A program made the position numbers and the translations under genes. Under the pieces are notes generated by a model. That model did not search any database and was not told the DNA's origin. It saw nothing but the letters and a program-made list of their open reading frames with translations. Positions 6,062-36,628 of a DNA stretch of 61,770 nt are shown here, one piece after another (the stretch's first letter is position 1; each line of letters starts with the position of its first letter). The stretch spans positions 1-61,770 of the forward strand of contig JAMPIL010000009.1 in the NCBI GenBank assembly GCA_023662725.1, given 5' to 3'. This DNA is from Ruminococcus flavefaciens. GTDB lineage: Bacteria; Bacillota; Clostridia; Oscillospirales; Ruminococcaceae.

Positions 6062-6096
6062 AAGCTGTTGCACTTCGGTACAACAGCCTTTTTTCT
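6062..6096. terminator. Bidirectional terminator between tyrS and pflA
   Basis: GCTGTTG at 6064-6070 pairs with CAACAGC at 6081-6087 around a short loop. On the plus strand it is followed by CTTTTTTC, which suits tyrS. On the minus strand it is followed by TTTTG and lies just after the pflA stop codon. Confidence 0.75.
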
Positions 6097-17334: not shown

Positions 17335-17365
17335 CACAAAAAAGCTCCCCATAACGGAGAGCTTT
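17335..17365 (-). terminator. Terminator after the Gabija operon
   Basis: On the minus strand AAAGCTC and GAGCTTT arms (17359-17365 and 17341-17347) enclose a short loop and are followed by TTTTTTG. It lies about 110 bp after the gajB stop codon. Confidence 0.75.
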
Positions 17366-17475
17366 AATCGTTGTCTTGTGACTATAAAATAGATGAACGA
17401 TAAAAGTGTCTATTTTCAACTAAAAAACAAGACACGTAATGGCTACTCCGACAAAAAGATAACGCTATTGAGGCA

Positions 17476-19347
17476 CTAGGATTCAGATGATGTTAGGTTT
17501 ATCAACTTTGCAATTCCTGGTGTTTTTAACAACTCGAAAAATTCATTAATATCTTTATGAGATTGCTTAGGGTATTTAACTGTAGAGCGACAATTACAAA
17601 ATGTGAACATAATTTCTAACTTGGCACGAGAAAGTGCTACAAAAAAAGCACACCTATCTTCTTCAGGTTGTTTTTTGAAATTCCAAAAGGCAGAATCCTC
17701 AAGTCCGACAAAATATACAGCTTGATATTCTAAACCCTTACTTTTATGAATTGTCATAATCGGTACTGAATTCAATCCCTCAAAATTTTCTAAAGCAAGC
17801 AACCAATTAAACTGTACGTTTTCAAGTTCATCCCACATAAATGATTGAAACTTACTTAATAATTCAGTCAAATAGGTACCTTGATTATACTTTGGAATCA
17901 TAGCCTTTAAGTGACATAATCCCCAAAACCTTATAGCATGCTGCAGTAATTCATGAAAGTCTTTTTTGGATGACACGTTCTTAATTAAAATATTGAGAGA
18001 ATTTATTTCCTCAATAATTTTGTCCTGCATTTTATAATATGAATCTACTTCTTGCGAAGATCCCATGCCCCAAAGTTCTCCAGATATTGTTAATATAAAC
18101 TCCCAATCCTGAGGTCTCTTCCTATCAACAGATAATCTTAGCAATGCCATAAGCATTTCAATTATCGGCTCTTTTATCAAATCCTGATAATCATTTTCTA
18201 TACGAGCGCGAATTTGATATTTTTCAAGTTCTAAAATTATTTGTGAAGTGTATTTTTGCGGTAACTGTTTGCACAAAATACACAATTCATTTGGTGATAT
18301 GCCCATTGAAATTTTTTGAAATATATCTGCAGCAACTTTTTGAGCCTCTTTCATCTCATTTTCGGCTATAACTAAAGAGATTGCTCCATCTTCAGGATTC
18401 CACTTATTAGAAAAGATTACTTTGCTATCGGATTCGTTTAATGATAAATACATCATTTTTTGTAATTCAATAAGTCGCGGAGCAGATCTGTGATTCATTA
18501 TTAATCTTTGAGAAGATGCATTAAAATCTTTTTGAAAGTTCTCAAATACGGTTTTTAATGCTCCAGCCCACAGCATTATACGTTGTTTATTATCTCCAAC
18601 CGCTGTCATTATGGAAGATGAATTTAGAAAGCATTGTTTTACTAGTTTATACTGCAAACTTGTCGTGTCCTGAAACTCATCTAAAAACACATGTCCATAT
18701 GTTAGTTGAAGTCCTTTTTTTATTTTGGGATTTGTTCTGATTATATATTCAGAAAGAATACATATCATTTTGAATGATAAAGAGGAATTATACTTATCAA
18801 AACCTTTTAATAAAAATTTCCACACCTTTTCACCTAAATCATTTTTTGAGAAAGGTAATGTAACTGAGGCAAGCACCTGATTATAATAAGTATTTAATCT
18901 GCTAGGTGACAAATTATACGGATTGGTAAAACCAGCCTTTTTAAATGCAGCATCAATAACTTCTTTATCTTCTATCAGATAAGAAGCACTTGGTCTGATG
19001 AGCTCTGGTAATGCAAAACGAAAATGATCTAAAATATCTTTAGAAAATGCATCATATGTTAATGACACAAATCTGTTTCTTACTTCATTTCCGCACCTTT
19101 TCATTACTCGTTTCTTTAAATTGTCAGCGGCATCGTTCTTAAAACTTATTGCCAATATTTTTTGTGGATTACGACATTTATTGGTCTGAAAAAGATAACT
19201 TGCTTTTTGTGCTAACAATTCTGTTTTACCAGCACCAGGACCAGCAACAACAAGTGTGCTTGAATCTTTTCGAACTGTTGCTTCAGCATTAGTTTCCAAC
19301 ACAATTCCATCACAAGGCATCCACTTACCGGGCGAAATAATTTTCAT
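17476..19347 (-). CDS. gajB: GajB-like UvrD-type helicase (Gabija)
   Basis: This 623-residue superfamily 1 helicase has Walker A GPGAGKT at residues 36-42, Walker B FLDEFQDTTS with DEFQD at 223-227, motif III VGDNKQRIMLWAGA and motif V MTIHKSKGLEYQAV. Its start overlaps the end of the OLD-nuclease gene by four bases. OLD nuclease plus UvrD helicase is the Gabija anti-phage arrangement, in which GajB joins GajA in a complex that degrades DNA. It is longer than the best-known GajB (about 500 residues). The same operon direction continues upstream into three other genes. Confidence 0.88.
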   Translation of the reverse strand: MKIISPGKWMPCDGIVLETNAEATVRKDSSTLVVAGPGAGKTELLAQKASYLFQTNKCRNPQKILAISFKNDAADNLKKRVMKRCGNEVRNRFVSLTYDAFSKDILDHFRFALPELIRPSASYLIEDKEVIDAAFKKAGFTNPYNLSPSRLNTYYNQVLASVTLPFSKNDLGEKVWKFLLKGFDKYNSSLSFKMICILSEYIIRTNPKIKKGLQLTYGHVFLDEFQDTTSLQYKLVKQCFLNSSSIMTAVGDNKQRIMLWAGALKTVFENFQKDFNASSQRLIMNHRSAPRLIELQKMMYLSLNESDSKVIFSNKWNPEDGAISLVIAENEMKEAQKVAADIFQKISMGISPNELCILCKQLPQKYTSQIILELEKYQIRARIENDYQDLIKEPIIEMLMALLRLSVDRKRPQDWEFILTISGELWGMGSSQEVDSYYKMQDKIIEEINSLNILIKNVSSKKDFHELLQHAIRFWGLCHLKAMIPKYNQGTYLTELLSKFQSFMWDELENVQFNWLLALENFEGLNSVPIMTIHKSKGLEYQAVYFVGLEDSAFWNFKKQPEEDRCAFFVALSRAKLEIMFTFCNCRSTVKYPKQSHKDINEFFELLKTPGIAKLINLTSSES

Positions 19348-21416
19348 TGCGTATCTCCTCGTAATGCTTTTTCTGCTACTGTAATCATTTTGTCAAAAAC
19401 AATAGGCATAGACTTTAATATTATTTCATCATCCATTTTGGAAAGTGCTTCAATATGTGTAGATGGTTTTCCTCTGTTTAAGAAAAAATATGTATACCAA
19501 ATCATTAATTTTTTTTGTGCATCAGTATATGTTTTTCCATCACCACCACAATTCTTTAAAGTATGCCGAACATCGTCCTGAATACGTTTTATGTATTCAG
19601 GATAAATCTCCCCTGATTTTTCAATATCTATTATGTATTTCTGATGTTTTTCCTCGTATTCGTCAACCATAAGTCGAGGTCCTTCTTTTTCATTAAGTAA
19701 TCCTTTATAAATTTTTTCATAATGCTCTAACATCAAAAAATCAATATCCAGTGGTGCAGAAAAGAAAACATTATACCGTTCCAGATAATTAATCCAATCC
19801 TGCAAGATTTTTGAGTCATTAACATCCCATTCAATCATTTCTTTAAATGCTTTATCAGACAGAACACCATTAGTTGTTTTTAATAACTGATTTTTATCAT
19901 ATCCATTTTGAATAAGCTGATCCAAAACATATTTTATGCGTCCCCAACCTCCACCTTCTCTTTCCTTGTCTAAATCCAATAATGTAATATGTGGAATCTT
20001 AAGATCATTAAGAAGTCTCCATAAATGATTGATATGCCTTCCACCCAAAGGAACAATGGATATACCACTTATATCAATATTTTCATTTTTAGCATTCCAG
20101 AACTTAGGCAAAATAATTTCTTCACTATCGCCTTCTCCTAAGATTACAAGTTTAGCAAAATATAGTTCGGGATATGCTTTAACAGCTTCTTTAATAAATT
20201 TATATTGATCGGTCAACTTCTCCTTGTCAGGTAAAGTTATAGAACGAACTTTTGTTGTGCAATCACTAACGTCAAGACGGAAATATCTCAAATTTTCTGG
20301 ATCAACTCTTTTTATAATTGATGTAGAATGAGATGTCAATACAGTTTGTGAATTACTTTTGAAAGCTATATTTTCTAAATTAGAAACTAGCTTTCCAATC
20401 AAATGAGGTGCAATATGATTTTCTGGCTCTTCTAAGGCGATTATAGTTAAAACAGGCGGTTTATGATTAAAAGAAGTGTGTTCAGGGTCAACTTCAAGTT
20501 CTTTTTGAATTTTTGCCTCAACGTCAAGAATACTGTCAACCAAAGAAATATAGAAAAGAGATCGTAATCCATCACTCATATCATCAATAATACATTCTTT
20601 TCCCGTTACTGTTGGAAGAAAAACTACTTCTGATTTTTTTATAGAGGAATCTATATCTGTACTATTAAAACGTAATTGAGCATTTGAATATCTGGTGTCA
20701 GAATCGTAAGCTACCCATTGTGTATGAATAGATTCTCCAAGTATTGATACACCCTTCTCATCTAAAAACTGAGCATTTAACTCCTGAATTTTTTCTTTAA
20801 CATTTTCTTTGGTAGTATCACTCCAATTTATGCTATTCATTATTTTGTGCATCATCGTACCAGATGCATTTCTAAGTTGCTTGGAAGGATCACGAACGGC
20901 TGGTACATAAATAACTCGAATGCGATCCAAATCTCGTCGATTTGCAAGTCTTTTATATTCGTCTTTAATATCTTCGCTTTCAGGGCATGTTATATAGTAT
21001 GTATTGCTTTCAATGGCACCATCTACATTACTGCTTTTCTCCCATGTTGCTTCTAAACGGATACGAAGATATGGCGTTCCTTTAGGATTATCTACAACTA
21101 AGCTTTGAAAGAATGGCGGAATAGTATACTTTCCGTTTTCATCGTCTTCCAATTCTTTGAAAGTAAACACGGCTTCAATATATAGATCTTGAAATTCTAT
21201 TTCTTCGGGTTCTTTATTTTGGGGAAGGTAAAAATCGCTACGCTTTAAAATGCGATCACTACTATTACTAGAAAATAAACAACATAATGCTAACAATGCT
21301 GTGCTTTTACCTGTACTATTGTTACCAATGAAAGCTGTAATATCCTCTATATCAATTACTTGCTCATCGCATCCGAAACAACGATAATTATAGAGCTTAA
21401 GTTTTGTAAGTTTCAA
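19344..21416 (-). CDS. gajA: GajA-like OLD-family ATP-dependent endonuclease (Gabija)
   Basis: This 690-residue protein has an SMC/OLD-type ATPase with Walker A GNNSTGKST at residues 31-39, signature-like SDGLRSLFYI at 281-290 and Walker B TIIALEEPEN at about 324-333. A TOPRIM nuclease domain follows, with ILGEGDSEE (E428) and LLDLDKE (D481, D483). GajA is a sequence-specific DNA nicking enzyme restrained by nucleotides. It is longer than the prototype (about 580 residues), mainly at the C-terminus. AGGAGG precedes the start. An 89-bp gap from the upstream gene may carry a separate promoter. Confidence 0.9.
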   Translation of the reverse strand: MKLTKLKLYNYRCFGCDEQVIDIEDITAFIGNNSTGKSTALLALCCLFSSNSSDRILKRSDFYLPQNKEPEEIEFQDLYIEAVFTFKELEDDENGKYTIPPFFQSLVVDNPKGTPYLRIRLEATWEKSSNVDGAIESNTYYITCPESEDIKDEYKRLANRRDLDRIRVIYVPAVRDPSKQLRNASGTMMHKIMNSINWSDTTKENVKEKIQELNAQFLDEKGVSILGESIHTQWVAYDSDTRYSNAQLRFNSTDIDSSIKKSEVVFLPTVTGKECIIDDMSDGLRSLFYISLVDSILDVEAKIQKELEVDPEHTSFNHKPPVLTIIALEEPENHIAPHLIGKLVSNLENIAFKSNSQTVLTSHSTSIIKRVDPENLRYFRLDVSDCTTKVRSITLPDKEKLTDQYKFIKEAVKAYPELYFAKLVILGEGDSEEIILPKFWNAKNENIDISGISIVPLGGRHINHLWRLLNDLKIPHITLLDLDKEREGGGWGRIKYVLDQLIQNGYDKNQLLKTTNGVLSDKAFKEMIEWDVNDSKILQDWINYLERYNVFFSAPLDIDFLMLEHYEKIYKGLLNEKEGPRLMVDEYEEKHQKYIIDIEKSGEIYPEYIKRIQDDVRHTLKNCGGDGKTYTDAQKKLMIWYTYFFLNRGKPSTHIEALSKMDDEIILKSMPIVFDKMITVAEKALRGDTQ

Positions 21417-21505
21417 AGAAATAACCTCCTGTTATTAATAAATGAAGCTTGATAACCCTATCATAATTTATATAATTATTATAAACATTTTTATAAGCAA
21501 CCTCT

Positions 21506-22720
21506 TTATCCTCGATATGTTAGATTAGAATACTTAACGAAAGGGCGCTCATCTGTAGACCGATCTATTTCAATATCAGGGTATTTATACCAACAATGAT
21601 CGTCAGGGAAAAATGGTTCATTCCAGAATAGCATTTTTTCATTTACATAATGACGAATGGCATTTGTTATCTTATCAATATTTATGCCCAAATAAATTGC
21701 AGCTGTTTTTACTATAGGATCAATTAAGTATTCACATAACTTATGATCAAACATCAAGCTATGTCTCTTTAAGTAATACTTATCAGACTTACATATACAT
21801 TTATATGGATACGATACAAACGGAGGTAATCCTAATTTAGATCTTATACTTACATCTTTATCAACTGATTCAAAATCTCGTAAAACAACTTTTTTTACAT
21901 TAAATTGTGCATCAAATGCGTAAAGTATATTTTGAGAGTGCATTTCTGGAATCAGACCTTCATTAAATACACAGCTAAAAAAAATGTCAATTAGTGGATA
22001 GCAAATCTCTTCAAGCAAAAAATCAATCGGATTCCTTTTTATTCTTAACAATTGAATCAGTATACATTCGTCATTCGGATTTTTAATATCTGATGAAAAA
22101 AGAGAGAATGCTGGAACAAGATAATATGAATAAATATCTATGCCAATCTCCCTAACAACAAACCCTATCTCTGTGTCTCCTTTTTTTAAGATTTTACCGC
22201 CTGTTTCTGGCATAAATCCAAATATATCTGGAACTCTACCACTATTTTTTAAATGGTTTAAAGATTCTGTCACTTCAAGTGCAGAAATTAAATGAGAATA
22301 ATTCAAATCTCTTTTAAGGCGTCCTAATTTATCTGGATAACACAATTTTAAATAATAATTTGTTCCTTTTATACGAACAGTTCGCATGCTTGAAGTAGGA
22401 ATAACTATTTCTCCATCAATAACATTACCTAAAGAACAAACTTCCTTTTCATGGTAAAGAGTCCAGTCTGGATGCATATAAATAAAATCAATTTTTTCAC
22501 TGTCATTGTGACAAAAATGTGGTACTGAGCCATATGTTTTAATAAAACTCTCTGAAACAGAAAACAGCTTTTTAACTCGAAAAGATTCACTATAAAATGG
22601 ATTAGTTTCAATTGATGAAGTGTGGATTGTAGTAAAACCACTTTTCGAACCTTGATTAACCAATCGTTCCATATAGTTCAAAGATTCATTATTTGGCATG
22701 AGAATTTCTGATAATTTCAT
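21506..22720 (-). CDS. Shortened NIS (IucA/IucC) synthetase-like protein
   Basis: Residues about 108-140 (PTSSMRTVRIKGTNYYLKLC, then RLKRDL) match the ATP-binding core of NRPS-independent siderophore synthetases. Residues 258-282 (EMHSQNILYAFD, then VVLRDFE) match their second active-site block. These enzymes adenylate a carboxylate such as citrate and form an amide or ester. At 404 residues it is about a third shorter than usual IucA/IucC proteins; the shortfall is N-terminal. No other siderophore gene is nearby. It lies 15 bp after the serine hydrolase gene and 89 bp before gajA, so a role in the defence cluster is inferred. Confidence 0.75.
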   Translation of the reverse strand: MKLSEILMPNNESLNYMERLVNQGSKSGFTTIHTSSIETNPFYSESFRVKKLFSVSESFIKTYGSVPHFCHNDSEKIDFIYMHPDWTLYHEKEVCSLGNVIDGEIVIPTSSMRTVRIKGTNYYLKLCYPDKLGRLKRDLNYSHLISALEVTESLNHLKNSGRVPDIFGFMPETGGKILKKGDTEIGFVVREIGIDIYSYYLVPAFSLFSSDIKNPNDECILIQLLRIKRNPIDFLLEEICYPLIDIFFSCVFNEGLIPEMHSQNILYAFDAQFNVKKVVLRDFESVDKDVSIRSKLGLPPFVSYPYKCICKSDKYYLKRHSLMFDHKLCEYLIDPIVKTAAIYLGINIDKITNAIRHYVNEKMLFWNEPFFPDDHCWYKYPDIEIDRSTDERPFVKYSNLTYRG

Positions 22721-22735
22721 TTTTCCCTCTCTTAA

Positions 22736-23668
22736 TTATAAATAATAATTTAGAATTTCATATAAAGGATTCATATCACTTTGATGTGATAGAATAGAAA
22801 TAGCCATATTGCTATCTGGAGAAATAATAATTAACTGACCATCTGTGCCATCGCAAAAATAATGAGTTTTTGGATAGTCCTTTGTTCCATTACCACAAAT
22901 CCACAATCCATATCCATATGACATCTTATTAATACAACGTCCTTGTTTATTTACATAATCCGGAAGATTAGCTGTAAAGAAATGAGGTGTATGCATTAAA
23001 TCTACCCACTCTTTGCTAATAATTTGTTTTTTATTAAAACAACCATCGTTTAAAAGCAACAGAGCTATTTCATGTAGATCCTTATTGGTCATTCTTAATC
23101 CGGATGCTCCAAGACAAATTCCTTGCCAAGAACTTTCCCAATTCCCTGTTGTAATTTCCATTGCGTTAAACAGTTCCTTTTGCACCCAATCACCAAAATA
23201 TTCTCCTGTGAGTTGTTGTATAATTGCACACAGAAGATATGTTGCCGCATTGTTATATACAAAGTGTGTACCTGGAGCATAATCAATATTAAAGTTTAAA
23301 ACATAGTAAAGTAAATCTGTATCAATTGAAAGCTTATGGATATCCTTACTAAACATAAGCCCTTTACTTTGACCAATTGTTAAATTAAGAAGGTGTTTTA
23401 CTTTCATCTTACTAAGATAATCAAGATTAGACACATTAGTAATCTTAGTTTCATCAAAAAAAGGAAGAATGTTTGTTTCAAGAGTGAAAAGTTTTTTTTC
23501 GATAGCCTTATATGCTCCTAAACAACTGATAGTTTTGCTTATTGAACGAATATTATTTTCTTTATTATCTGTGAAATAATGCTCATAACGTTTTCCATCT
23601 TTGGTGATAATAATGCTGTCAACATTAAGATCTTGTTCTTGAACAGCATCTACAAAATACTTTAACAT
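22736..23668 (-). CDS. Beta-lactamase-fold serine hydrolase
   Basis: This 310-residue protein belongs to the class C beta-lactamase/esterase group. Motifs visible are S42-I-S-K45 (SISK), Y138-N-N140 in FVYNNAATYLL, and the HxG/KTG-like CDGTDGQ near residue 278. No signal peptide is present, so it should act in the cytoplasm, unlike penicillin-binding relatives. It could hydrolyse an ester or amide. Positioned 36 bp after the membrane-anchored gene and 15 bp before the NIS synthetase-like gene, it may process what the synthetase makes; this is inference. Confidence 0.82.
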   Translation of the reverse strand: MLKYFVDAVQEQDLNVDSIIITKDGKRYEHYFTDNKENNIRSISKTISCLGAYKAIEKKLFTLETNILPFFDETKITNVSNLDYLSKMKVKHLLNLTIGQSKGLMFSKDIHKLSIDTDLLYYVLNFNIDYAPGTHFVYNNAATYLLCAIIQQLTGEYFGDWVQKELFNAMEITTGNWESSWQGICLGASGLRMTNKDLHEIALLLLNDGCFNKKQIISKEWVDLMHTPHFFTANLPDYVNKQGRCINKMSYGYGLWICGNGTKDYPKTHYFCDGTDGQLIIISPDSNMAISILSHQSDMNPLYEILNYYL

Positions 23669-23704
23669 AATAAACTCCTTTTAACTATAAAACAATATAG
23701 AGAA

Positions 23705-25963
23705 TTACTTTTTTTTCTCACGTTTACTAGTGATTAATTTAGGTATAAATTCAATTACACCTGTAATCAAAATTCCTACAGCAATTGGAATCCACATAAA
23801 CGATTCAAGAATCATATCTTTAAACAAATCCGGATTCTTCAAATATAAGAATAAATAATAAGATAGCACAAGTAAAATTGAAACGCTTGCAATTACGGTA
23901 GCAATACGTAATTTTGACTGACTATTATCAAATTGAGTTTTTATATTTTTTAGTTCCAAAAGTTGTTGAATACTTTCTCCGTTTTTCTTTGTAAGGAAAT
24001 CAATTGTTTTCAGTGCAAGTAATAATGAATTATAAGAATCAACTAATTTTGCTTCCTTGCTTACTTGATTTAGAAAATCTTTTGATTCATATGTAGTTGT
24101 TCTATCTGCAGCTATAATTGCTGTAATTGCATTTGCAGTAGTAACAATATTATCCTCCCAATTATTTACTTGATATGCATTTCTTAAAGCAGTAATGCCT
24201 CTGTCAATCGCTTCTTGTACTATTTCTTCATCTTTCTCAAATTCATGCTTAGCTTGATATTTCAAGAGAAACACTAGCAATCTCGCTGTTTTTCCACAGT
24301 TGTTATCCCAACGACCATTTTGCATTTGTGTTTCTAAAATCTTTAAAATACACTCATGTATGTGATTTCGAATATCTTTACGTTCTGCAAAAGCATCCAA
24401 ATAAACCAAACACACTTCAATATCTAGGCACAAATCTATCTCCAATTTGTCTTGTACTGTTCCTGAGGTAGCAATATTCTGTAAATCAGTCTTAAAATCA
24501 GAAATAGCTTTACTTAAATCATCGAATCTACCACAATTATAAAATGATCGAATAATAAACTTTTTATTATACCCAGATGTATCATTATATTTTTTTATTA
24601 ACCAGTTCTTGGTTTCTATGTAGTAATCTTCAATCTTAGTGATTTCATTTCGATATGTTTCATTACTAAGCACTAGTGCTTCAAGTTCAAGTAAACCACA
24701 AGTAGGAGCTAATACACCATCATAACTTCCTTTTTGATAATGAGTTTGGATTTGTAAAAAAACGCTTTTTAGGAAGCAAGATATTGACACACCCATATTA
24801 TGTAACGCAAAAATAACATCATAAGTTTTCCAAAAACTATTATCCCATAATCCTCCATTATATTTGCACCTAAGCCATGTCTCGACCTCTCTTTTTTGAG
24901 TATCAATATAACTATAATAAGAAAAGTTTACTAGAACAAGCTCTTTGTTAATATATTTATAGTAAAACAACTTAACATATCCATCTTGAGGTTTAACATA
25001 ACTTTCCCAAAAATTAGCCACTTCGTCTTCTGTGAAATCTGGTGAGAAAACATATAGTGTATGATATTTTCTTAATAGGTTAGTATCGTTTACAACATCT
25101 CTCAAAGATTTATATGAAATATAAGAGATCTTCGAAAGCTTTGCTTCAGAAATAATAAACTCAAACTCTAAAGATGGAGAATTTTCCTTGTTGACAAAAG
25201 CAACATTAGGAATACCCACAATTAAATAGTATAATATATTTTCTATAAGTTCATAATGACCAGCCCAATCAAGTGCCATTGTTGAAATTACAATTTTTTC
25301 ATTACGTTGTGGGCAAGCAACCATTAATGTATTCCTATAAGGGTCTCTTAAATCAGCTAAGACAGAGAAATACGATGAATCATTAAGCGGTATAATATAG
25401 TCACGATAATAGTGCCTTTGAAAATCATTTTTCTTACAATGATCATCAATAATCTCGTCAGTTATATTTTGTGGATAAGTGGTTAATATTTTTTGAATGT
25501 TATTTTGATTATCATAAAAAATACTGATTGATCCATCTGCAGAACTTTCTTCTTTAGGTCGTGAAACAACCATATATTCATATACTTCGGGTAAAAAATA
25601 TGTTTCACGTGCTTTATATCTATTATTATTTGGAGTTTTTACTTCTTTAAACTTCTTTTGGGAGCAAATCAACAAGCCTTTTCCAAGGGAAATATATTCT
25701 GCTAAAACAGCTTTATTCGCTTCATTGCATAAAATGCTATATACATCGCCATCACTAGTAGCATTTGTGCCAATAATTAAGCAATCATAATCAAGTAAAT
25801 AATTTTCACCTTCTACAAAAAGTTCTCTAATATTAACGCTAGAAAAGCGGTTAAATACATGTTCTTGAAGATCAAAATTCTGTCGTTTATACTTAGGTAT
25901 TGAATCAACATAACCAGAATGTTGCATTTCAACTTCATTTTGAATTACTGCAATTCTATACAT
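23705..25963 (-). CDS. Membrane-anchored protein with amidotransferase-like and alpha-toroid regions
   Basis: This 752-residue protein is not assignable to a known named family. The N-terminus (about 1-260) reads like a class I amidotransferase/ThuA-like flavodoxin fold (YDCLIIGTNATSDGDV; EYISLGKGLLICSQ). The middle (about 370-620) has prenyltransferase/terpene-cyclase-like repeats: GGLWDNSFWKTYDVIFALHN, QNGRWDNNCGKTARLL and VNNWEDNIVTTANAITAI. The C-terminus holds two membrane helices (about 672-695 and 708-735) and a lysine-rich end. There is no signal peptide, so the bulk is cytoplasmic. It is the first gene of the cluster that ends in Gabija. A sensor role is a guess. Confidence 0.65.
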   Translation of the reverse strand: MYRIAVIQNEVEMQHSGYVDSIPKYKRQNFDLQEHVFNRFSSVNIRELFVEGENYLLDYDCLIIGTNATSDGDVYSILCNEANKAVLAEYISLGKGLLICSQKKFKEVKTPNNNRYKARETYFLPEVYEYMVVSRPKEESSADGSISIFYDNQNNIQKILTTYPQNITDEIIDDHCKKNDFQRHYYRDYIIPLNDSSYFSVLADLRDPYRNTLMVACPQRNEKIVISTMALDWAGHYELIENILYYLIVGIPNVAFVNKENSPSLEFEFIISEAKLSKISYISYKSLRDVVNDTNLLRKYHTLYVFSPDFTEDEVANFWESYVKPQDGYVKLFYYKYINKELVLVNFSYYSYIDTQKREVETWLRCKYNGGLWDNSFWKTYDVIFALHNMGVSISCFLKSVFLQIQTHYQKGSYDGVLAPTCGLLELEALVLSNETYRNEITKIEDYYIETKNWLIKKYNDTSGYNKKFIIRSFYNCGRFDDLSKAISDFKTDLQNIATSGTVQDKLEIDLCLDIEVCLVYLDAFAERKDIRNHIHECILKILETQMQNGRWDNNCGKTARLLVFLLKYQAKHEFEKDEEIVQEAIDRGITALRNAYQVNNWEDNIVTTANAITAIIAADRTTTYESKDFLNQVSKEAKLVDSYNSLLLALKTIDFLTKKNGESIQQLLELKNIKTQFDNSQSKLRIATVIASVSILLVLSYYLFLYLKNPDLFKDMILESFMWIPIAVGILITGVIEFIPKLITSKREKKK

Positions 25964-26269
25964 AATTTACTCATCCTCCTTAAGAAAAAGTAAATAATTT
26001 CATCTTATATTTTACAATTTAGTATAATATACAATTATCATCTATCGACTTAAATCAACAATATAATTATACACAAATTTACAACATTTTTCAATAGAAT
26101 TAGCAGATTTCATACAAGTTTGTCTAAATTTCTATATATTGTACAATGTACTAAAGTTGAATTTGTACGTTTTGACAATTCAATACATTTTTGCGACATA
26201 TTTCGACACAGGGCATATGGAAAGCGATTTAAAATAGCAAACTGCTTTCCATACACCTAATATTAGCGA
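25964..26269. other. AT-rich intergenic region
   Basis: About 300 bp without a gene. On the minus strand TATACT-like sequences near 26020-26030 could be the -10 element of the five-gene cluster. An inverted repeat ATGGAAAGC ... GCTTTCCAT at about 26217-26255 lies just after the 86-aa gene and may end its transcript, although no T-run follows. The edge between the defence cluster and the mobilizable element probably falls here. Confidence 0.4.
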
Positions 26270-26530
26270 CTATTCTCCATCAATCATTCTGCAGTATTCC
26301 TTTTCCTCACTGTCAATATAATCCTTAGCAAACTGAATAGCTTCATCAAGACTGTTTTTCAGAAGTTCAAAACCAACTGCTGCCGAAAACACATCAATCT
26401 CAAGCTTTTCAGATTCATCCGAAAAAACTTCTATTGTAAAACCATCGCAATTAACTATTTCGCCGTTTTTATCCTCCCGATGTAAATTATTATCGGGAGT
26501 AATTTTTACAAAAAATCCTTTATATTTCAT
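26270..26530 (-). CDS. Uncharacterised 86-aa acidic protein
   Basis: A small soluble protein beginning MKYKGFFVKITPDNNL and ending in an acidic helix (AIQFAKDYIDSEEKEYC). No catalytic motif or membrane segment is seen and I do not recognise the family. AAGGGG precedes its start. It follows the split gamma-glutamylcyclotransferase-like gene in the same direction, 11 bp after that gene's second stop codon, so they are probably one operon of the mobilizable element. Confidence 0.6.
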   Translation of the reverse strand: MKYKGFFVKITPDNNLHREDKNGEIVNCDGFTIEVFSDESEKLEIDVFSAAVGFELLKNSLDEAIQFAKDYIDSEEKEYCRMIDGE

Positions 26531-26595
26531 TTCTTTTCCCCTTAAAATTTCATTTGAAGATCATCGTCAAAACCGAAATCCTCATCAAATTCTTC

Positions 26596-26810
26596 CTAAA
26601 TGAGCTGCTTATGATAAATTGAATTTTCCAGAGCCGTCTGCAGATAAGACTCATCCAGACCGTTTTCTCTGTATCCCTGCAAAATCGTATTGTAATACAT
26701 CTGACTCGGAGGAGAAAGCTCCCCATAATTCATCAGATATGCCATTCCCTCAACTTCTTTTCCCTCCAACTCAAAAGACATCTTTTCCTGCCTGTAAAGT
26801 CTCGGATATC
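26596..26810 (-). CDS. Gamma-glutamylcyclotransferase-like gene, 3' exon
   Basis: This is the second part of the gene interrupted by the group II intron. Joined to the first part, the frame continues NRYEG|YPRLYRQEKMSFEL and gives a 145-residue AIG2/GGCT-like protein in total. This part carries the ALENSIYHKQLI end before TAG at 26598-26596. The frame stays open for 17 further codons after this TAG (EEFDEDFGFDDDLQMKF), an acidic tail that looks coding, so TAG may be a late nonsense change. Without splicing this part has no start of its own with a good ribosome-binding site. Confidence 0.75.
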
Positions 26811-29509
26811 ATTGCGATAGGTAAGGTTTTGAAGTAATCGCCGCCTTTTCCCCCGCTTAGCACCGTGCATGCGACTTTCACCGCACACGGCGCCCCATCG
26901 GTATTACAAATTCGTTAGATTAGTATTAATTTCAAAGTTCTAAAAACATTAGATTGCAGGATTTCCTGCTGACATTCGGAATATATTTATTTTTTTCAAG
27001 CTGAGATTTGTTAGGTTTAACTTTGTCAAGATATGCCTGAATGGTTTCAGATTTAACAGCGTGGATCAGCATATGAACTTCTTTATGCACGATAACAAGA
27101 TTATTGTATTCGTCCGTACCGCCCTGACTTGTCGGCTTTTTATGATGACAATGGATTTCATCAATCCAAAGTATTCTGCCTGTAACGTCACATTTTCCAT
27201 ATTGAGCGGCGTATAGCGAAACTCTGTTATCCAAATATTCAATGCTTCTGTTGGGAATTACCTCTTTCGCAAGCATATGAAGTACCGTCATAACGCTTTC
27301 ATCAAATTTAAGACTTTTATGAATTGCTTCTCTGCCTTCTGCTGTATATTTACATATCTTTCGCTTTTTGTACATCGGATTTCATGTTTGAATATATCCT
27401 ATTGGACAAATCGGTTCTTGGTGCACATATCGTACCATTCGGCTTTTTCCATAGTTTTTCAGAATGACGTTTCTTTGAATAAATCCGTTCTTCTTCAGCT
27501 GTCCTCTGAGTTGATGATACATGACCGTATAAACTGAAAACTGTATTTTCATACAGTCAAGGCTGATATTTGTTGCATATCTGTAGTAATTGTGTATACC
27601 CATGACCATTGAATTATACTGCTTTATCTGCAATATTTCATCATTTTTAGTTTTGCCATGAGCTATTTCTCTTATCTGATTTTTCAGGTTTTCAGTTACT
27701 CGCTTGACAGCTTTATCTGTCATATGCGACCTGACTACGTACTTTTTCCCTTTGTGAACCGCTTTCAACTTGAATCCTAAAAATTCAGAGTAACGCTTTT
27801 TGAGATTAACAACCTTTGATTTTTCTTCGCTGATTTCCAGCTTTAATCTGTCTTTCAGCCACTTTTTAACAGCAATAAAAATTTTATTTGCGTCACTTCG
27901 CTTACGACAGAAAATTTTAAAATCGTCTGCATATCTTACAATGTACATTTCTTTTAGTTCACTTCTTCTGAGAACTTTAAAGACTACGCTTTTGCTCGGA
28001 GAGCCATTACTGTTTATACCAATGTAGTAATTTCTATGCGTCGGCATTGTTTCCCACTGGCTGCTTATCCACCAATCCAGTTCGTTCAGAACGATATTGG
28101 CTAACAGCGGTGATAAAATACCGCCTTGCGGTGTGCCTTTCGTTGGAAATATTTTATTGCCGTCTGGCAGTATTATTGGTGCTTTCAACATTTCCTTAAT
28201 TATGCAGATTAGTTATTTATCCCGTATTCCCATTGCCCACATTTGACGTATCAGCTTTGAATGATTCACATTGTCGAAAAAGCCCTTGATGTCAACGTCC
28301 ACGACAAAATAAAGATACTGCCTGTGAATCATTTTATAACATTGCGCCAATGCGTTTTCTGATGACCTGCTTGGTCTTAAACCGTTGCTTCGCTCATGAA
28401 ACTTTGCTTCACAAATCGGTTCTAAAACCTGTAAAATACATTGCTGTACAAGTCGGTCAATTATTGTCGGTATTCCCGGTGGTCTGGTCTTACCATTAGG
28501 CTTGGGGATTTCTACTCGCCTAACGGGTTTAGGCTTGTAAAATTTTAGTTTCCTCTGAATTATTTCAGCTAACTTTTCAGCGGACAATTTCTCAATATCT
28601 TTGATATTAAGTTTATCCGCACCGCTTGTATAACTGCCTGAATTTCGCTTGATATTCCTGTATGCAAGCCGTATATTTTCCTCACTCGAAATTATCTCCA
28701 TGAGCTTTGTGAAAACTTCACCTTGTTTACTTTGGGCATACAAATTATCAAAGCATTCCTGTAAATCATAATATTCCAGATGTCTTAGTTTTTTCTGCTT
28801 TGTCATAGGCAACTCCACCTTTCAGTTTCGTTTTTCTCGGATAAAATCCTAATCATACTCGAAGCTATGAATTTCAATACCTATAACTAATTTTGTAATA
28901 TCGACTTGTGGCTGTCCCTCCGTTTTCCATTACAGAAAACATCAACGGTAATGCCACGACTTAGCCCACAATCAAAACAGCTTATTATTCTTCGTCTGTA
29001 CCGCAATAATGCGTACTGTTGGCTGCCACGTTCCGATAATCCTATCTTTGCATATGTACTTAGGTGTCTGCTGTAAGCCTGACAGCTTGGCAGTGACTGT
29101 AACACTGCAAGGTATTTCATAACGAAGATTCTTACTTTACCTCACTGTCCCTGCTCTTTGGCAGTCTGCACATTTCTATGCAGTTCGAGGTTATAGACCC
29201 GTACTTTCGCAGATTCGTCAGATATTTCTATCATTCTCACCATATACATTTTATAGACCCCCGACCTATAGGATACACCATTCACCTCTGAATAGCTTTC
29301 GTTTTGATTGCTCAACTACAGTATCTCTCAGCCGACTTCACCGAGCTTCTGACAAAATCAGTTTCCCAATAATGCCAGTCGGAGTATCAGGGGAGGCATT
29401 TCAAGGCGTTACCCTATCATTCCACCTCTCGGATTATCAGTTCTCCTAACTTGAGAACTTTACGTTCTTTTATTAGTGCCTAATCTTTTCAATTAGGAAC
29501 GTGTCGCAC
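26811..29509 (-). mobile_element. Group II intron with maturase gene
   Basis: The 5' end on the minus strand is GTGCGACACG at 29509, the GUGYG consensus of group II introns. The 3' end ...CTATCGCAAT at 26811 fits the terminal AY rule. Near the 3' end (about 26865-26905) is a domain V hairpin with GCCGTGTGCGGTGAAAGTCG. Between them lies a reverse transcriptase-maturase-HNH frame (26932-28806). The 5' part, 28819-29509, has no gene and should hold RNA domains I-III. Exact removal joins two frames of a gamma-glutamylcyclotransferase-like gene without loss or gain of bases. The intron is 2699 bp. Confidence 0.9.
26932..28806 (-). pseudogene. ltrA: Group II intron maturase, two nonsense codons
   Basis: One frame encodes, in order, a reverse transcriptase (N-terminal RT motifs around PKPNGKTRPPGIPTIIDRLV; catalytic YADD in VRYADDFKIF), a maturase X domain, and an HNH endonuclease (CHHKKPTSQGGTDEYNNLVI). 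The frame is interrupted by TAA at 28215-28213 and TGA at 27384-27382, both in frame with the text on each side, so simple base changes explain it. The start at 28806 (MTKQKKLRHLEY) follows GGTGGAG. The protein is unlikely to be made intact, so splicing would need a maturase from elsewhere. Confidence 0.88.
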
Positions 29510-29732
29510 CCTCGTAGCGGTTTAAAGTTGGCAGATCTCTATCATCAAGTTCCCAAATCAGAGCAGGAACACTTGTGTCCTTATTCGGAACGATTGTCGC
29601 AACGCCTCTGAACTCCAATTCATAATCCTTGATTTCTGCCGTACCCACAACTCTTGAATGCGGACATCTGAATGCCATTTGCTCAAGATTGATGTTGCTT
29701 CCGTAAGCAATATATAACTGTTTATTTTTCAT
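29510..29732 (-). CDS. Gamma-glutamylcyclotransferase-like gene, 5' exon
   Basis: The first 74 codons of an AIG2/GGCT-like protein start at 29732 with MKNKQLYIAYGSN, containing the family YGSN loop and RCPHSRVVGTAEIKDYEL. The exon ends after GAGG at 29510, where the intron begins. The family forms pyroglutamate from gamma-glutamyl peptides or amines. Small members of this kind occur in the accessory regions of Firmicutes conjugative elements. Without splicing the frame would run six codons into the intron and stop. Confidence 0.8.
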
Positions 29733-29745: not shown

Positions 29746-29805
29746 TTACATTGACATTTCCATGCCAAATCGCTGAGTTTTTATTCCATCAAAGTTTTTT
29801 GACAT
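29746..29805 (-). CDS. Possible 19-aa leader peptide
   Basis: A short frame (MSKNFDGIKTQRFGMEMSM) starts at 29805, with GAGGTG seven bases upstream, and ends 13 bp before the cyclotransferase-like gene. It is either a small peptide, a translational leader, or the remnant of a longer gene. No family is recognised. Confidence 0.35.
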   Translation of the reverse strand: MSKNFDGIKTQRFGMEMSM

Positions 29806-29871: not shown

Positions 29872-31497
29872 TTATTCAATTTCCGTTCTGACCTCGTATC
29901 CGCCTTTGAAAATCACCAGTATTTCGGTCTTACTTATCACTTTTACGCATTCAATCAGCTTTCTTATCAGTACATTATCAAAGGTTTCCAGTTCGAATTT
30001 CTCATGCTCTATCATATCCATGATCTTATCAAGCTTGGCTTGGGTTTCAGCGGAAGTCTGATTCTGTGATTTCAGCAATGTAAGCCGTTCGCTAAGACCT
30101 TGTTCCTCTGCATAAAGCTTCGCAAATTCACTGTCAAGCTTGTCCTCGTCGCAGCTGCCAGAGGCTATCAATCCGACTAAATCGTTCCTTGCCTGATCTA
30201 TTTCTTTCAATCTTTTTTCTGCTGTGAGAATTTCTTCCTGTCCCTGACATTCAAGCACCGAACCGATATTCGCTTTCAAAATCCTCGCAATATCATTTCG
30301 GCAGGAATAGTAATTATTGATCGCCCTAATTATTGCCTTGTGGAGCTGTTCTTCCTTTATCGTTGGCGAATCGGAACAGTACTTTTTGCCGTGTTCCAAA
30401 CGGCTTATACACCGCCATACAATTTGCTTTTTTCCTCTTGCCGCCCAAGTGGTTCTGCGATAGGGAGTGCCGCATTTTCCACAGATAAGTAATTCGGTAA
30501 GCGCATATTTGCTTGAATATTTGCCTTGTTCAGTAGTAGTTTTATCGCTAATTTTACGCTTTGAGCTTCTCCTTGTAAGCTCCTGCTGTACTCGGTTATA
30601 TGTGTCACGGTCAACTATGGGGTCATGATGATCAGAAACCAGATACATTGGGCGTTCTCCGTGATTTTTCACCACTTTATGAGTAATACAATCGAGAGTA
30701 AATGATTTTTGGAGCAGAGCGTCTCCAACGTATTTTTCATTCTTCAAAATACTGCGTATATGAGACACATTCCAGATTTTCTTACCTGTTGAAGTTAGAA
30801 AGTCCTTGCTTTCAAGGACTTTTTTAATATTACTCAAACTGTATCCGTCAAGGAACAACGTGTAGATCAGTTTTACGATTTCCGCTTCTTCGGGTACGAC
30901 CTCCGGTTTGTCGTCCGCTCCCTTTTTATAGCCAAGCAGATATTTGTACTGGAATGATACTTTACCCTCACGGTAAGCTTTTTCTTTTCCCCATGAAACG
31001 TTTTTACTGATTGATTCGGATTCTGCCTGTGCGAATGAACCATATAATGCAATCATAAATTCGCTTGTCATAGTCATCGTGTTTATATTCTCTTTCTCGA
31101 AAATCACTCCGATTCCGAGATCTTTGAGCTGTCTGACGTATTCAAGGCAATCGACGGTGTTTCGTGCAAATCTTGATATCGACTTGGTAATTACAAGGTC
31201 AATTTTCTTGTTTCTGCACATACGGATCATGCGATTAAATTCGGTACGCTTTTTTGTCTGAGTGCCGCTGATACCCTCGTCAGCGAAAATTCCGGCGAGA
31301 GTCCATTCCTTTTTGCGATTTATCAAGTCTGTGTAATATGCGATCTGCACTTGGTAGCTGTTCTGCTGTTCCTCCTGTTCGGTGGATACTCGGCAGTATG
31401 CGGCTACTCTCAATTGGTGGTATTTACTACGGTTTTCCGCAGTCTGTGCTTTCGCAGGAATTATCGTTACATTTGGAGCTGTTGACACAATTCTCAT
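29872..31497 (-). CDS. Large serine recombinase 1
   Basis: This protein of about 541 residues has an N-terminal resolvase catalytic domain with nucleophile serine in AAYCRVSTEQEEQ and the conserved ITKSISRFARN and AEKENIN-like segments. A recombinase domain, a zinc ribbon (CGKCGTPYRRTTW ... C) and a coiled-coil region complete it. It is the last of three recombinase genes transcribed in tandem. Start 31497 (MRIVSTAPNV) is chosen from the homologous look of the N-terminus, although AAAGGA abuts the ATG; GTG at 31488 has better spacing. It overlaps the end of the preceding recombinase frame. Confidence 0.88.
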   Translation of the reverse strand: MRIVSTAPNVTIIPAKAQTAENRSKYHQLRVAAYCRVSTEQEEQQNSYQVQIAYYTDLINRKKEWTLAGIFADEGISGTQTKKRTEFNRMIRMCRNKKIDLVITKSISRFARNTVDCLEYVRQLKDLGIGVIFEKENINTMTMTSEFMIALYGSFAQAESESISKNVSWGKEKAYREGKVSFQYKYLLGYKKGADDKPEVVPEEAEIVKLIYTLFLDGYSLSNIKKVLESKDFLTSTGKKIWNVSHIRSILKNEKYVGDALLQKSFTLDCITHKVVKNHGERPMYLVSDHHDPIVDRDTYNRVQQELTRRSSKRKISDKTTTEQGKYSSKYALTELLICGKCGTPYRRTTWAARGKKQIVWRCISRLEHGKKYCSDSPTIKEEQLHKAIIRAINNYYSCRNDIARILKANIGSVLECQGQEEILTAEKRLKEIDQARNDLVGLIASGSCDEDKLDSEFAKLYAEEQGLSERLTLLKSQNQTSAETQAKLDKIMDMIEHEKFELETFDNVLIRKLIECVKVISKTEILVIFKGGYEVRTEIE

Positions 31498-32365
31498 TCC
31501 TTTCTGATATATTTTTGATGTGTATGCCGTTGATAAATTCAACTTCAACGGTACAAAAATGACTTATCCAAATTCGTGAAACACACGCTTTGAACAAGCC
31601 ACTATACATCGTATTTAATTGTTTGTGATTTTCAAGCAAAGCCTTTATTTCCACTGTTTTCTGTGGATTTTCGTTATATGTACAGCAGTCGTACTTCATC
31701 TCGGCAAGCCTGAAAAACTCGGCTTTTACTCTGTCAAAATCCATTTGGATAGAGTCGGTCATCTGATTTATCTCATTCTGCTAACGAATAATATCCGCAG
31801 TTGGAGAATATATGCTTACCTCACCGTCAGACTCCAATAGGCTGAGATTTGCGATAGCTGTGTTCAGAACGGTCAGCACTGCTCCAATTATCATCTGGTC
31901 GGTCAGTCGATATTCAAATTTATAGCAATCGGCATTTCTGCAATCCCAATGCTCGTATCTCGAATTACCGCCTATTCTTGTAAGTCGGTGACCGCATTCG
32001 GCGCAGTATGTAACCTTTCTGATTTCCTGTAAATCATCGCATACCAGATTAAGCGTGGTAGCTTTTCTTACTCGCTTTTCATTTGCCTGATTAAAAATAT
32101 CCTCATCAATTATCTGCGGATATTTGTCAGTTCCGAGATATTTCTCATTTTCGATTATCCTCTTGACCATATTTTTATTCCAATGATCAGAATCCTCGGT
32201 ATATCGGATTTTCTCGGATTCCATAAGCTTTGCGATTTGAAGTAAGCTGCTGCCATTCAGATATTCTCTGAAAATCGTTGATACTGCGTAAACTTCTTTC
32301 GGGTTGGTAGTTATTTCTCCGTTTTTCATGCAGTAGCAAAAAGGTATAACTCTGTTTCTTGCCAT
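31427..32365 (-). pseudogene. Recombinase 2 lacking catalytic domain, split by an in-frame TAG
   Basis: The first 194 codons (32365-31781) start MARNRVIPFCYCMKNGE after GGGAG and encode a recombinase domain and zinc ribbon (VTYCAECGHRLTRIG ... C) without a resolvase catalytic domain. TAG at 31783-31781 ends it. The same frame continues directly (QNEINQ, then MTDSIQMDFDRVKAEFF) to 31427, giving the coiled coil and C-terminal domain expected of the family. Originally a 312-codon gene, it now probably makes a truncated product. Such catalytic-less partners are found beside serine recombinases in Firmicutes elements. Confidence 0.82.
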
Positions 32366-32373
32366 TGACCTCA

Positions 32374-32402
32374 CTCCCTTCAACCAACAAGGATACCACA
32401 AA
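32374..32402 (-). repeat. Leader repeat, copy A
   Basis: A 29-bp sequence (minus strand, containing TTTGTGGTATCCTTGTTGG) ends at the ribosome-binding site of recombinase 2. The same sequence with one mismatch precedes recombinase 3 at 34644-34672. Confidence 0.7.
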
Positions 32403-32478
32403 AATCTGCGGAAATCCAGTATCAAAGGCAATAAAAATACGCTCTGTGTTTTGGTCACAAAGCGCAATTTTTATTTGT

Positions 32479-33106: not shown

Positions 33107-34633
33107 TTAGATAGACTCTTTAAATTTCAATCCGCCGATCAAATGAAATTCCAGTTCATTTTGATTTATTACCACGATCTTCTCAACTATACTCTCAAAT
33201 GCCGATTCTTCAAACTCGGTTATCGGATTATCTCGCTTTTCAAAAAAGTTGATCAGGATTTCAATCTGATCAAGCGTTTCGTCCTCATCGTCGGAGCGTG
33301 TGAGCTTTTTCAGCTCGGTTTGCAGTTTATTGATTTTAGCTGTAAGCTCTGTGGTTTGCTCCATAAACTTAGCCTCGTCCAGAAATCCTTTTGTTTTCAG
33401 CCTTGCAAGGACGTGTGTCTGTTCCCGAAGCTTGGCGATTTCTTTGTGTATATCCATTACCTGAGTTTTACCGCTGAATTTTTTCAACTTTAAATCCTGT
33501 AGCGCTGTTTGGAGAGGTACAAGAATTTGCTTGTAATTGAATAACAGTTTGTTGCAAAGCATTGTGAAAGCTCTGTAAATATTATTTTCAGCAATTTGTT
33601 TGTTTGGACAATTTTCAGCTCGCTTATCGTGTTTTGTACAGGTCCAATATATTATTTCTCGACATATTTTCCTTCTATAATGCAAATGGCAATTCCCACA
33701 TTCTATTTTTCTGGTCAGAGGATATGTTGCAGTTTGCTTTTTGGAAGTTCTGCGTTCTTCTAACAATTTCTGAACTGCACAAAACTTCTCTTTTGTGAGA
33801 ATAGGCTCATGTGTATTCTCAATGTAATATTTATCCGCTTGTCCGTGATTTTCTCTGTTTTTCATACCTACTATATCAGGTGTGTAATACTTTTGGAGCA
33901 TAGTATCGCCTATATACTTTTCATTTGTAAGAAGATAACGCATACTTGATTGAGACCACTTTCGCAAATGAGAATATTTTTTCCTAAAATGTTCGGCTGC
34001 ACTTTGTACACCGCCTCCGGACAATATGTAATCAAAAATCTCGTTCACAATTTTAGCTTCATCCTGATGAATATATAACATATTATTGATAAGCCGATAA
34101 CCAAACGGAGCACATTGAGTGATATAATTTCCCGAAAGCATACGTTTTTGATAACTCCACTTCATATTTTTAGATATTGATACCGATTCCTCCTGCGCCA
34201 GACCGCCCATAATGGTTATCATCATTTCATCGGTCATATTGGCGGTATCAATGTTCTCTTTCTCAAAAAATATTGTTATGCCGAGGCTTTTAAGTTCTCT
34301 GACGTTTTTCAGACAATCCCTTGTGTTTCGGGCAAATCGGCTGATTGATTTCGTATAAATTCTGTCGATCTTACCCTTGCGGCAATCCTTCATCATCCTC
34401 TGAAACTCGTCGCGCTTGTCCTCACGAGTTCCTGTGATACCTTCGTCGGCGTATATGTCGATCAGTTCCTCTGTTTCCGAACCCTCAAAAACCTGACTGT
34501 AGTATCTTGTCTGCGCCATAAAGGAATTAAGCTGATCTTCACTGTCTGAGCTTACTCGGCAATATGCGGCACAACGTATCTTGACTGCTTTTTCTTCTGT
34601 TATTGTCGGCTGTATAACCGTTACTATCGGCAT
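33107..34633 (-). CDS. Large serine recombinase 3
   Basis: This 508-residue protein has the resolvase catalytic domain (AAYCRVSSDSEDQLNSFMAQ, with the nucleophile serine; TKSISRFARNTRDCL), recombinase domain, zinc ribbon (IECGNCHLHYRRK ... C) and a coiled coil. The start is set at 34633 (MPIVTVIQPTI) after AAAGGAG; the frame is open 34 codons upstream but lacks a site there. It is first in the order of the three recombinases. It and recombinase 1 probably drive integration and excision of the element. Confidence 0.9.
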   Translation of the reverse strand: MPIVTVIQPTITEEKAVKIRCAAYCRVSSDSEDQLNSFMAQTRYYSQVFEGSETEELIDIYADEGITGTREDKRDEFQRMMKDCRKGKIDRIYTKSISRFARNTRDCLKNVRELKSLGITIFFEKENIDTANMTDEMMITIMGGLAQEESVSISKNMKWSYQKRMLSGNYITQCAPFGYRLINNMLYIHQDEAKIVNEIFDYILSGGGVQSAAEHFRKKYSHLRKWSQSSMRYLLTNEKYIGDTMLQKYYTPDIVGMKNRENHGQADKYYIENTHEPILTKEKFCAVQKLLEERRTSKKQTATYPLTRKIECGNCHLHYRRKICREIIYWTCTKHDKRAENCPNKQIAENNIYRAFTMLCNKLLFNYKQILVPLQTALQDLKLKKFSGKTQVMDIHKEIAKLREQTHVLARLKTKGFLDEAKFMEQTTELTAKINKLQTELKKLTRSDDEDETLDQIEILINFFEKRDNPITEFEESAFESIVEKIVVINQNELEFHLIGGLKFKESI

Positions 34634-34643
34634 TTTTCTCACG

Positions 34644-34672
34644 CTCCTTTCAACCAACAAGGATACCACAAA
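34644..34672 (-). repeat. Leader repeat, copy B
   Basis: This 29-bp sequence is a near-identical partner of 32374-32402, again ending at the ribosome-binding site of a recombinase gene. The shared position suggests either common descent by gene duplication or a common translational control signal. Confidence 0.7.
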
Positions 34673-34706
34673 TCTTTTCAGAATGGTATCACCAAACCTG
34701 ACTAAA

Positions 34707-34826
34707 TTATTTGTCTGAACCTGTGCATTTTTCATGTTTGTCTGCTTGTCCTGCCGCCGTGCAGAGACACATTGTGATCACTCCTGCTGTACCACCTACA
34801 AGCAATCCAATAACGAATCCTAACAT
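34707..34826 (-). CDS. 39-aa membrane peptide, DUF3789-like
   Basis: A 39-residue peptide starts MLGFVIGLLVGGTAGVIT, a single glycine-rich membrane helix, followed by a short charged tail. It resembles DUF3789 proteins of Firmicutes conjugative elements. Function is unknown. It lies 12 bp after the 52-aa gene and about 75 bp before recombinase 3, in the same direction. Confidence 0.55.
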   Translation of the reverse strand: MLGFVIGLLVGGTAGVITMCLCTAAGQADKHEKCTGSDK

Positions 34827-35559: not shown

Positions 35560-35999
35560 CCTCCCACTTTAAATTTTATATGTAACAGGCGGTCTGCATT
35601 TTACGCAAACCGCCGTAATAATTCGTTTTGCCTTTGCATGATATTTATCCCCGATACCCGTCACGCACGGAACTCTGCAAGCTGCGGTCAGCGTAACCGC
35701 ATCATGGGACTCTCACCCGCTATATTAGCCCTCACTGGGAAGTATCATTATCCTCACACGTTTCATTGCCGACTTTGGCTGCTGTCCAAAGGTCTGTGAC
35801 TTGTCTTTATCGCTCGCTTTTTCAAGGTCATGGCGGACATCACATTTGGCTGTCGAGATTTCATACCGACCGTGTGATTAACGTACTTGCAGAGTTGCTA
35901 TTCTGTTGTCAAGATTCTATCGGGAAAATTCTCCGAATTATTTTCATCGATTTTTCCCTTCACTACTTACTGGCAACGAAATTGCAAAACTACAGGGAT
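35560..35999 (-). other. 440-bp gap with paired segments, possible structured RNA
   Basis: No convincing gene is present. On the minus strand several self-complementary segments cluster at 35585-35745: GGCGGTTTGC/GCAGACCGCC just before the 75-aa gene, GCGGT-TACGCTG-ACCGC, and GGGTGAGAGTCCC nearby. The text GGGTGAGAGTCCC with GCGG following is loosely reminiscent of cobalamin riboswitch cores, but the rest does not match. A leader RNA controlling the small genes downstream is possible. Confidence 0.35.
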
Positions 36000-36527: not shown

Positions 36528-36628
36528 CGTAATTCCTCCGTTTTGATTTTCTTGTTCTGAATCAAAACGAAGGCTTACGGATATTTTGCAATTTGGCATT
36601 GCCATGTCTTAAAAATAGGCATAAAAAC

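Follow-up and report, generated by a model that had tools for sequence, protein, structure and literature searches.

A canonical Gabija pair and a putative three-gene small-molecule module in the cargo slot of a probable mobile cassette of Ruminococcus flavefaciens

Introduction

A stretch of 61,770 nucleotides from Ruminococcus flavefaciens (assembly GCA_023662725.1, contig JAMPIL010000009.1, positions 1 to 61,770 of the forward strand), hereafter the window, contains a gajA-gajB pair with three unusual genes directly upstream on the same strand, and raises the question of whether these five genes form one defence system or two modules in one place. Two reports describe Gabija as a gajA-gajB system (PMC10781630, PMC12407980) whose GajA-GajB complex cleaves DNA; it is reported to be inhibited by nucleotides in vitro and promoted where RecBCD is blocked by phages (PMC12407980). 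The window locus differs from this two-gene system in the presence of the three extra genes, which encode a short NIS-synthetase-like ligase, a serine hydrolase, and a 752-residue protein with two membrane-type segments. An initial annotation of the locus had proposed a single composite system of five genes. Our analysis indicates that the locus probably consists of a canonical Gabija pair and a separate, stand-alone three-gene small-molecule module held in the same slot, the products of the three genes (the trio) not being Gabija subunits. The Gabija pair is ordinary and the element that carries it is of a known kind with an exchange slot; it is the trio that is unusual and unexplained.

The Gabija pair and the arrangement of the five genes

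All five open reading frames lie on the minus strand between positions 17476 and 25963. Recomputed coordinates show a 4 bp overlap of gajB and gajA and onward gaps of 89, 15, and 36 bp, so that the coordinates, strand and spacing given in the initial annotation are exact to the base. The first of these genes, gajB (17476-19347, minus strand), encodes a UvrD-like helicase with a Walker A motif (AGPGAGKT) from residue 35 and DEFQD from residue 223. Its neighbour gajA (19344-21416, minus strand) encodes an OLD-type ATPase-TOPRIM nuclease with a Walker A motif from residue 31 and the residues E428, G458, and D481/D483, and it begins with a TTG codon behind AGGAGG, as does its nearest relative found (66% identical, from a human faecal record). 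PADLOC models recognize GajA with 850.7 bits and GajB with 720.6 bits, and GajA contains the Pfam domains PF13175 and PF20469; a phmmer search with GajA against the PDB gave no match at 1e-10. The E, G, and DxD pattern of the GajA active site, compared by eye, fits the description in PMC10781630. PADLOC scores, catalytic motifs and the 4 bp overlap thus agree on the identity that had been assigned to both proteins. The pair resembles described Gabija systems in its two proteins, in the order and overlap of their genes, and in the active-site motifs and, judged by its sequence, is a canonical Gabija with intact motifs; it would be expected to act as they do, as a nuclease-helicase complex that cleaves DNA.

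The loci of other Gabija pairs bear on whether the trio belongs to the system. What reads by eye as a helix-turn-helix-like frame precedes the nearest GajA relative found, and Septu genes come after it; the trio is absent from the 9.7 kb examined there and no NIS gene lies directly before gajA, in a record that extends only 249 bases upstream of that gene. In total, none of the three Gabija loci that were opened, this one with its 249 upstream bases included, has the trio. A record named Bacteriophage sp. (MT839996.1) carries Gabija, with an interrupted gajB frame, together with Septu genes, and looks like a bacterial defence island. A search of the open-licence literature on Gabija accessory genes gave no description of the arrangement seen in the window.

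The three upstream proteins

The gene beside gajA (21506-22720, minus strand) encodes a protein of 404 residues with the motifs H83-P84, PTxSxRT (108-114), K125, HxQN (261-264), and D282. A seven-row profile, made of the window ligase and six relatives, finds AsbB at 5.4e-7 and AcsD at 5.9e-7; the HP, PTxSxRT, HxQN, and RDF motifs of the window ligase align with those of AsbB and AcsD, and the NIS active-site motifs are invariant across the seven aligned rows. The protein is therefore like the NIS synthetases (AcsD, AsbB, IucA/IucC) in the active-site motifs that it keeps. It differs from them in that it is short (175-249 residues shorter than the matching solved chains, which have 579-653), in that it stays under the Pfam cut-offs (IucA_IucC, 19.6 of 25 bits; FhuF, 21.4 of 25.2 bits), and in that no siderophore genes are seen adjoining. 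The description of this protein as a shortened NIS synthetase-like enzyme is hence borne out by the motifs and by the profile match, but not by Pfam domain scores. Most likely, the enzyme would activate a carboxylate with ATP and join it to an amine or alcohol. Searching the genome with PF04183 gave no match, which says little because the window gene is itself undetected by this model. An origin of the gene as the remnant of a siderophore cluster was considered too, and was rejected because the cargo contains no transporter. In the open-licence literature nothing relevant was found that links NIS synthetases or IucA to antiphage defence or to Gabija, nor anything that pairs NIS siderophore enzymes, IucA/IucC, and DUF1259.

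Eight loci with relatives of the short NIS protein were examined in other genomes, and the other four genes of the window are at none of them. No defence gene was noticed beside these relatives, the neighbours having been inspected without a PADLOC scan. Most of the relatives occur instead with DUF1259 or MFS genes, or in a cluster of sugar, radical-SAM, and peptidase genes. In Methylocystis and in a Planctomycetia metagenome-assembled genome, a DUF1259 gene directly precedes the short NIS gene, and in the Methylocystis loci an MFS transporter gene follows it. Three Clostridia metagenome-assembled genomes (L008, L009, and L010) place the gene with those for a UDP-sugar dehydrogenase, an epimerase, a radical SAM protein, a glycosyltransferase, and YdjC, as well as for a protein labelled by eye as methionyl-tRNA-synthetase-like; this set is possibly an undescribed biosynthetic cluster. 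These contexts favour a reading of the trio as cargo for metabolism or natural-product synthesis, its output being perhaps a small molecule that binds metal or is acylated, with no role in defence. The window cargo, however, contains no transporter or further biosynthetic gene, and related cassettes, discussed below, carry mostly defence-like or unknown genes. We regard a metabolic trio as possible, with a probability that falls clearly short of even.

The second gene of the trio (22736-23668, minus strand) encodes a 310-residue serine hydrolase or acyltransferase of the beta-lactamase fold, with SxxK at residue 42 and YxN at 138. Its match to PF00144 (71.7 bits, with a cut-off of 27) covers most of the domain length, and this match together with the two motifs upholds the fold that had been assigned to it. 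The protein shares these features with class C beta-lactamase-like serine hydrolases. It differs from class C in having no hydrophobic segment, leading or otherwise, and in scoring far below equivalog cut-offs (class C, 25.2 of 415 bits; 3-succinylated cholic acid synthase, 109.7 of 800 bits). A role as a drug-resistance beta-lactamase was rejected on the same two grounds, the low class C score and the absence of a leading hydrophobic segment. In the cytoplasm, such an enzyme could cleave or transfer the acyl group that results from the ligase reaction. Chemistry of this kind for ligase and hydrolase is plausible in view of the motifs that both proteins retain. Relatives of the hydrolase were matched in 92 plasmid records and 11 phage-collection records; the three of these that were opened have contexts unlike that of the window. 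In two of the three, the hydrolase relative shares a single frame with a YdjC/ChbG-type deacetylase; one of these is a Parabacteroides plasmid and the other a faecal record, in which the arrangement was read by eye. Open-licence literature on beta-lactamase-fold defence gave no description of the window arrangement.

The outermost gene (23705-25963, minus strand) encodes the 752-residue protein, for which neither a family above cut-off nor a relative was found. Two C-terminal membrane-type segments (683-709 and 716-746) are predicted by hydropathy only, and an extra window at 239-257 also passes. Pfam gave nothing above cut-off, PADLOC and NCBIfam gave nothing, and a search of the PDB gave a single match at chance level (E 0.51). 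A LANC_like match stays below cut-off (E 0.025; 13.6 of 23.2 bits). The initial annotation had predicted a membrane anchor, an alpha-toroid region, and an amidotransferase-like region: hydropathy agrees with the first, the LANC_like match lends weak support to the second, and no family supports the third. Comparison with the S51 peptidase of the Clostridia NIS cluster likewise gives no support for kinship (best E 2.6). The protein was found only in its own genome among 297 genomes of the family and 398 of the phylum, and in no plasmid record, phage record, or viral contig. If membrane-anchored as predicted, it might use or sense the product of the other two enzymes.

A cassette with an exchangeable cargo slot

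The five genes occupy the cargo slot of a cassette that runs from position 17372 to about 35.9 kb, an approximate length of 18.5 kb; they fill this slot of 8.9 kb, with no other long frame inside. The left end is marked by a motif (TGTCTTG..ACTATAAAATAGATGAA, 17372-17397, plus strand) that is common to sister cassettes with different flanking DNA. With up to two mismatches, the motif occurs at 12 sites in 7 of 125 genomes of the genus, 4 of the 12 being in this genome, and at none in controls; the window contains a single match and 100 shuffles of it contain none. The cargo interior has no second full end motif, and matches to a shorter core are there at chance level. Two further copies in the same genome (L037 on G000:C68 and L038 on G000:C15) match the window region 14500-36500 only on either side of the five genes, that is at 17372-17416 or 17372-17397 on the left and from 26267 or 26278 rightwards. 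Outside the left end motif the DNA differs in each copy. The inner border of the slot is formed by a backbone gene, orf86 (26270-26530, minus strand), which is present in the window and in five sister stretches and is followed by a GGACT-like gene and three serine-recombinase genes, described below. The putative right end region is at 35900-35925, where the main similarity to the sister cassettes L061, L063, and L065 stops (35887-35925); beyond it, L061 has a 66-bp match at 36535-36600, and the segment 35850-35984 has a copy with 96% identity elsewhere in the genome. To the left of the cassette, genes for an FkbM methyltransferase and a PH-domain protein are found in all five relatives fetched, and a query from this flank is matched by 49 of 60 genomes of the genus, a few of them in short pieces only. 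As a mobile cassette it most likely integrates by means of its own serine recombinases.

Ten of the 11 other end-motif sites were examined, a site at a contig end (G807) being left out. Five of the ten have orf86 (L037, L038, L061, L063, and L065). Of these, L061, L063, and L065 also have the GGACT-like gene, an amidoligase gene, and all three recombinase genes; L038, from which the queries for the GGACT-like and amidoligase genes were taken, has both of these and the recombinases, the third matched partly within the stretch examined; and L037 has only orf86 of the backbone in the approximately 4.5 kb beyond that gene. No backbone was seen at the other five sites. At three of these (L059, L060, and L064) the contig ends nearby, and L058 and L062 have none in 16 kb. 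L062 resembles ordinary chromosomal genes by eye, and bare or unrelated motif copies may account for some of the sites.

The cargo differs from one cassette to the next. That of L063 includes Lamassu-type genes recognized by PADLOC (LmuB, 1e-103; LmuA, 3.9e-39; LmuC, 1.3e-13), in which Pfam finds ABC-3C-type domains, as well as an AAA-ATPase_like/PDDEXK_9 gene; in L065 an AAA-ATPase_like/PDDEXK_9 gene, 60% identical and without a PADLOC match, is the sole cargo. L061 carries an AAA-TPR protein (matched by the general TPR model of PADLOC only, 3.4e-9), a cupin-like protein, and a methyltransferase-like protein (partial mad2, 7.1e-9). In L038 (219-3164) the cargo comprises a membrane protein, a B12 radical SAM protein (PDC-M51A, 2.6e-20), and a NUDIX protein (PDC-S07, 2.8e-12), which together make another candidate module. 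The three cargo proteins of L037 (5195-7288) have no match better than 1e-3; by eye, the first of them has a HEYVHH stretch with which metal binding would be possible. Counting the window, the six cassettes with orf86 thus comprise two with named defence systems (Gabija in the window and Lamassu in L063), two with candidate or STAND-like genes (L038 and L061), one with the AAA-nuclease only (L065), and one with unknowns (L037). The terms STAND-like, cupin-like, and membrane protein, and the treatment of PDC matches as candidates, are our own labels and not family calls. At L060, a NACHT protein and a 1092-residue partner accompany the end motif on a short contig without the backbone. The slot is often used for defence-like genes. 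Its end motif and common backbone genes make it recognizable throughout the cassette family, defence genes and candidate defence genes change places in it within one genus, and each unknown cargo that it carries is a candidate for testing.

The content of the sister slots (Lamassu, the AAA-TPR protein, and the PADLOC candidates) favours reading the trio as a stand-alone, undescribed defence module stacked beside Gabija, in which a molecule made by the ligase acts with a membrane effector or sensor; L038, where two small-molecule enzymes accompany what looks by eye like a membrane protein, has a comparable mix that points the same way. Against it stand the lack of any PADLOC model match for the trio and the lack of noticed defence genes in the unscanned neighbourhoods of the eight short-NIS relatives. 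Because no trio protein has a defence match, a defence role rests on the place of the trio, and we consider this reading doubtful. The more specific version, in which a ligase product trimmed by the hydrolase controls the membrane protein on infection, with or without control of GajAB, seems to us slightly more doubtful still. Should the trio prove to serve in defence, NIS-type ligase chemistry would become part of phage defence.

One composite system or two modules

That the trio is separate from Gabija is suggested by L063, which stacks two modules in its slot, one of which is found alone in L065. It is suggested also by the absence of the trio from the 9.7 kb examined at the nearest Gabija found and by the eight short-NIS loci that lack the other four genes. 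The probability that we give to the two-module reading is the sum of those for its metabolic and defence variants.

Several observations weigh against such a split. All five genes share one strand with short gaps, and of the 14 terminator-like sites listed for the window just one, a weak site inside gajB, falls within these genes on their coding strand. Third-position GC is alike in the five genes (0.20-0.25) and higher in two chromosomal genes at the left (0.36 and 0.39); the likeness is a weak argument because orf86 (0.264) has a value close to theirs, as does an RCC1-like gene that adjoins the cassette on its outside (0.239). No direct scar is seen between the NIS gene and gajA. The split itself is modelled on stacking in one sister cassette, the absence of the trio elsewhere comes from searches of limited reach, and the trio has no PADLOC match. 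Only five of the 11 other end-motif sites have orf86, moreover, and only four of these have recombinases.

The five genes form one cargo block, and a single transcription unit is possible. This arrangement, the active-site motifs that both enzymes of the trio retain, and the defence-like genes in sister slots are also what favours one composite five-gene defence system, in which the ligase makes a molecule, the hydrolase removes it, and either the membrane protein or GajAB is gated during infection. The search for the five-gene order that had been proposed with it found no second example in genome samples and exact-peptide scans of limited reach. The trio was not found together elsewhere and the eight short-NIS relatives have other neighbours, which, within the reach of these searches, is the outcome that the initial annotation had named as refuting its proposal. 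The restriction of the 752-residue protein to one of the genomes searched, the missing partners at short-NIS and opened Gabija loci, and the two-gene form of Gabija as described all speak against it as well. Scans of viral contigs with the NIS protein, the NIS alignment, the 752-residue protein, GajA, and the hydrolase found no relative, which is weak evidence of absence because even GajA found none. The composite system put forward in the initial annotation is, in our estimation, very unlikely, and we retain the two-module reading.

Other features of the cassette and the window

Consensus scans place a terminator-like hairpin at 17341-17365 (minus strand), just outside the left cassette end and downstream of gajB, and a promoter-like sequence (TTGAAA-17-TATAAT) at 26066-26094 (minus strand), upstream of the five genes and so before the gene for the 752-residue protein. 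Terminator-like sites in the window exceed shuffled sequence (14 found, 6.4 expected); promoter-like sites are at chance level (68 found, 69.3 expected). The segment 26034-26176, in which this promoter-like sequence lies, is similar to two further stretches of the same genome (G000:C43 and G000:C11; 72-75% over 126-144 bp) which, as read by eye, adjoin a subtilase-like gene and have a serine recombinase nearby.

The three recombinase genes, all on the minus strand, encode a large serine recombinase (29872-31548), a second recombinase (31781-32467) with the Pfam Recombinase domain and a zinc ribbon but no match to the resolvase catalytic domain, and another large serine recombinase (33107-34735). 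Three neighbouring serine-recombinase genes make the cassette similar to triple-serine-recombinase elements, such as the streptococcal integrative and conjugative elements with recombinase triplets described in PMC4701971. NCBIfam matches include CcrA, CcrB, CcrC, and XisF, yet the recombinases reach at best 138 of the 900 bits required for the CcrA/B/C equivalogs, and the cassette differs in this respect from Ccr-type cassettes (SCC). It differs from serine-recombinase-triplet and Ccr elements also in the orf86, GGACT, and amidoligase backbone of its family and in its defence-like cargo. Open-licence literature on serine-recombinase defence elements, on Ccr elements, and on amidoligase/GGACT pairs gave no description of this arrangement.

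The GGACT-like gene of the window is split between residues 75 and 76 into a 5' piece (29508-29732, residues 1-75) and a 3' piece (26545-26808, residues 76-163) by a group II intron at 26811-29445 with a reverse-transcriptase frame in two pieces, all on the minus strand. The L038 copy is unsplit, and in L061 the second piece of the gene likewise starts at residue 76. At 29751-29756 the window lacks the amidoligase gene that L038, L061, L063, and L065 have in their backbone; about 1 kb of L038 is unmatched there, and tblastn finds none. In L063, the cargo is separated from the regular backbone by a second, worn copy of orf86 with part of the GGACT-like gene (element coordinates 5704-6095), which suggests that cassettes pile up. 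A phage-type integrase gene close to where the window begins (1078-2556) adjoins tRNA-Thr and perhaps marks another integrated element.

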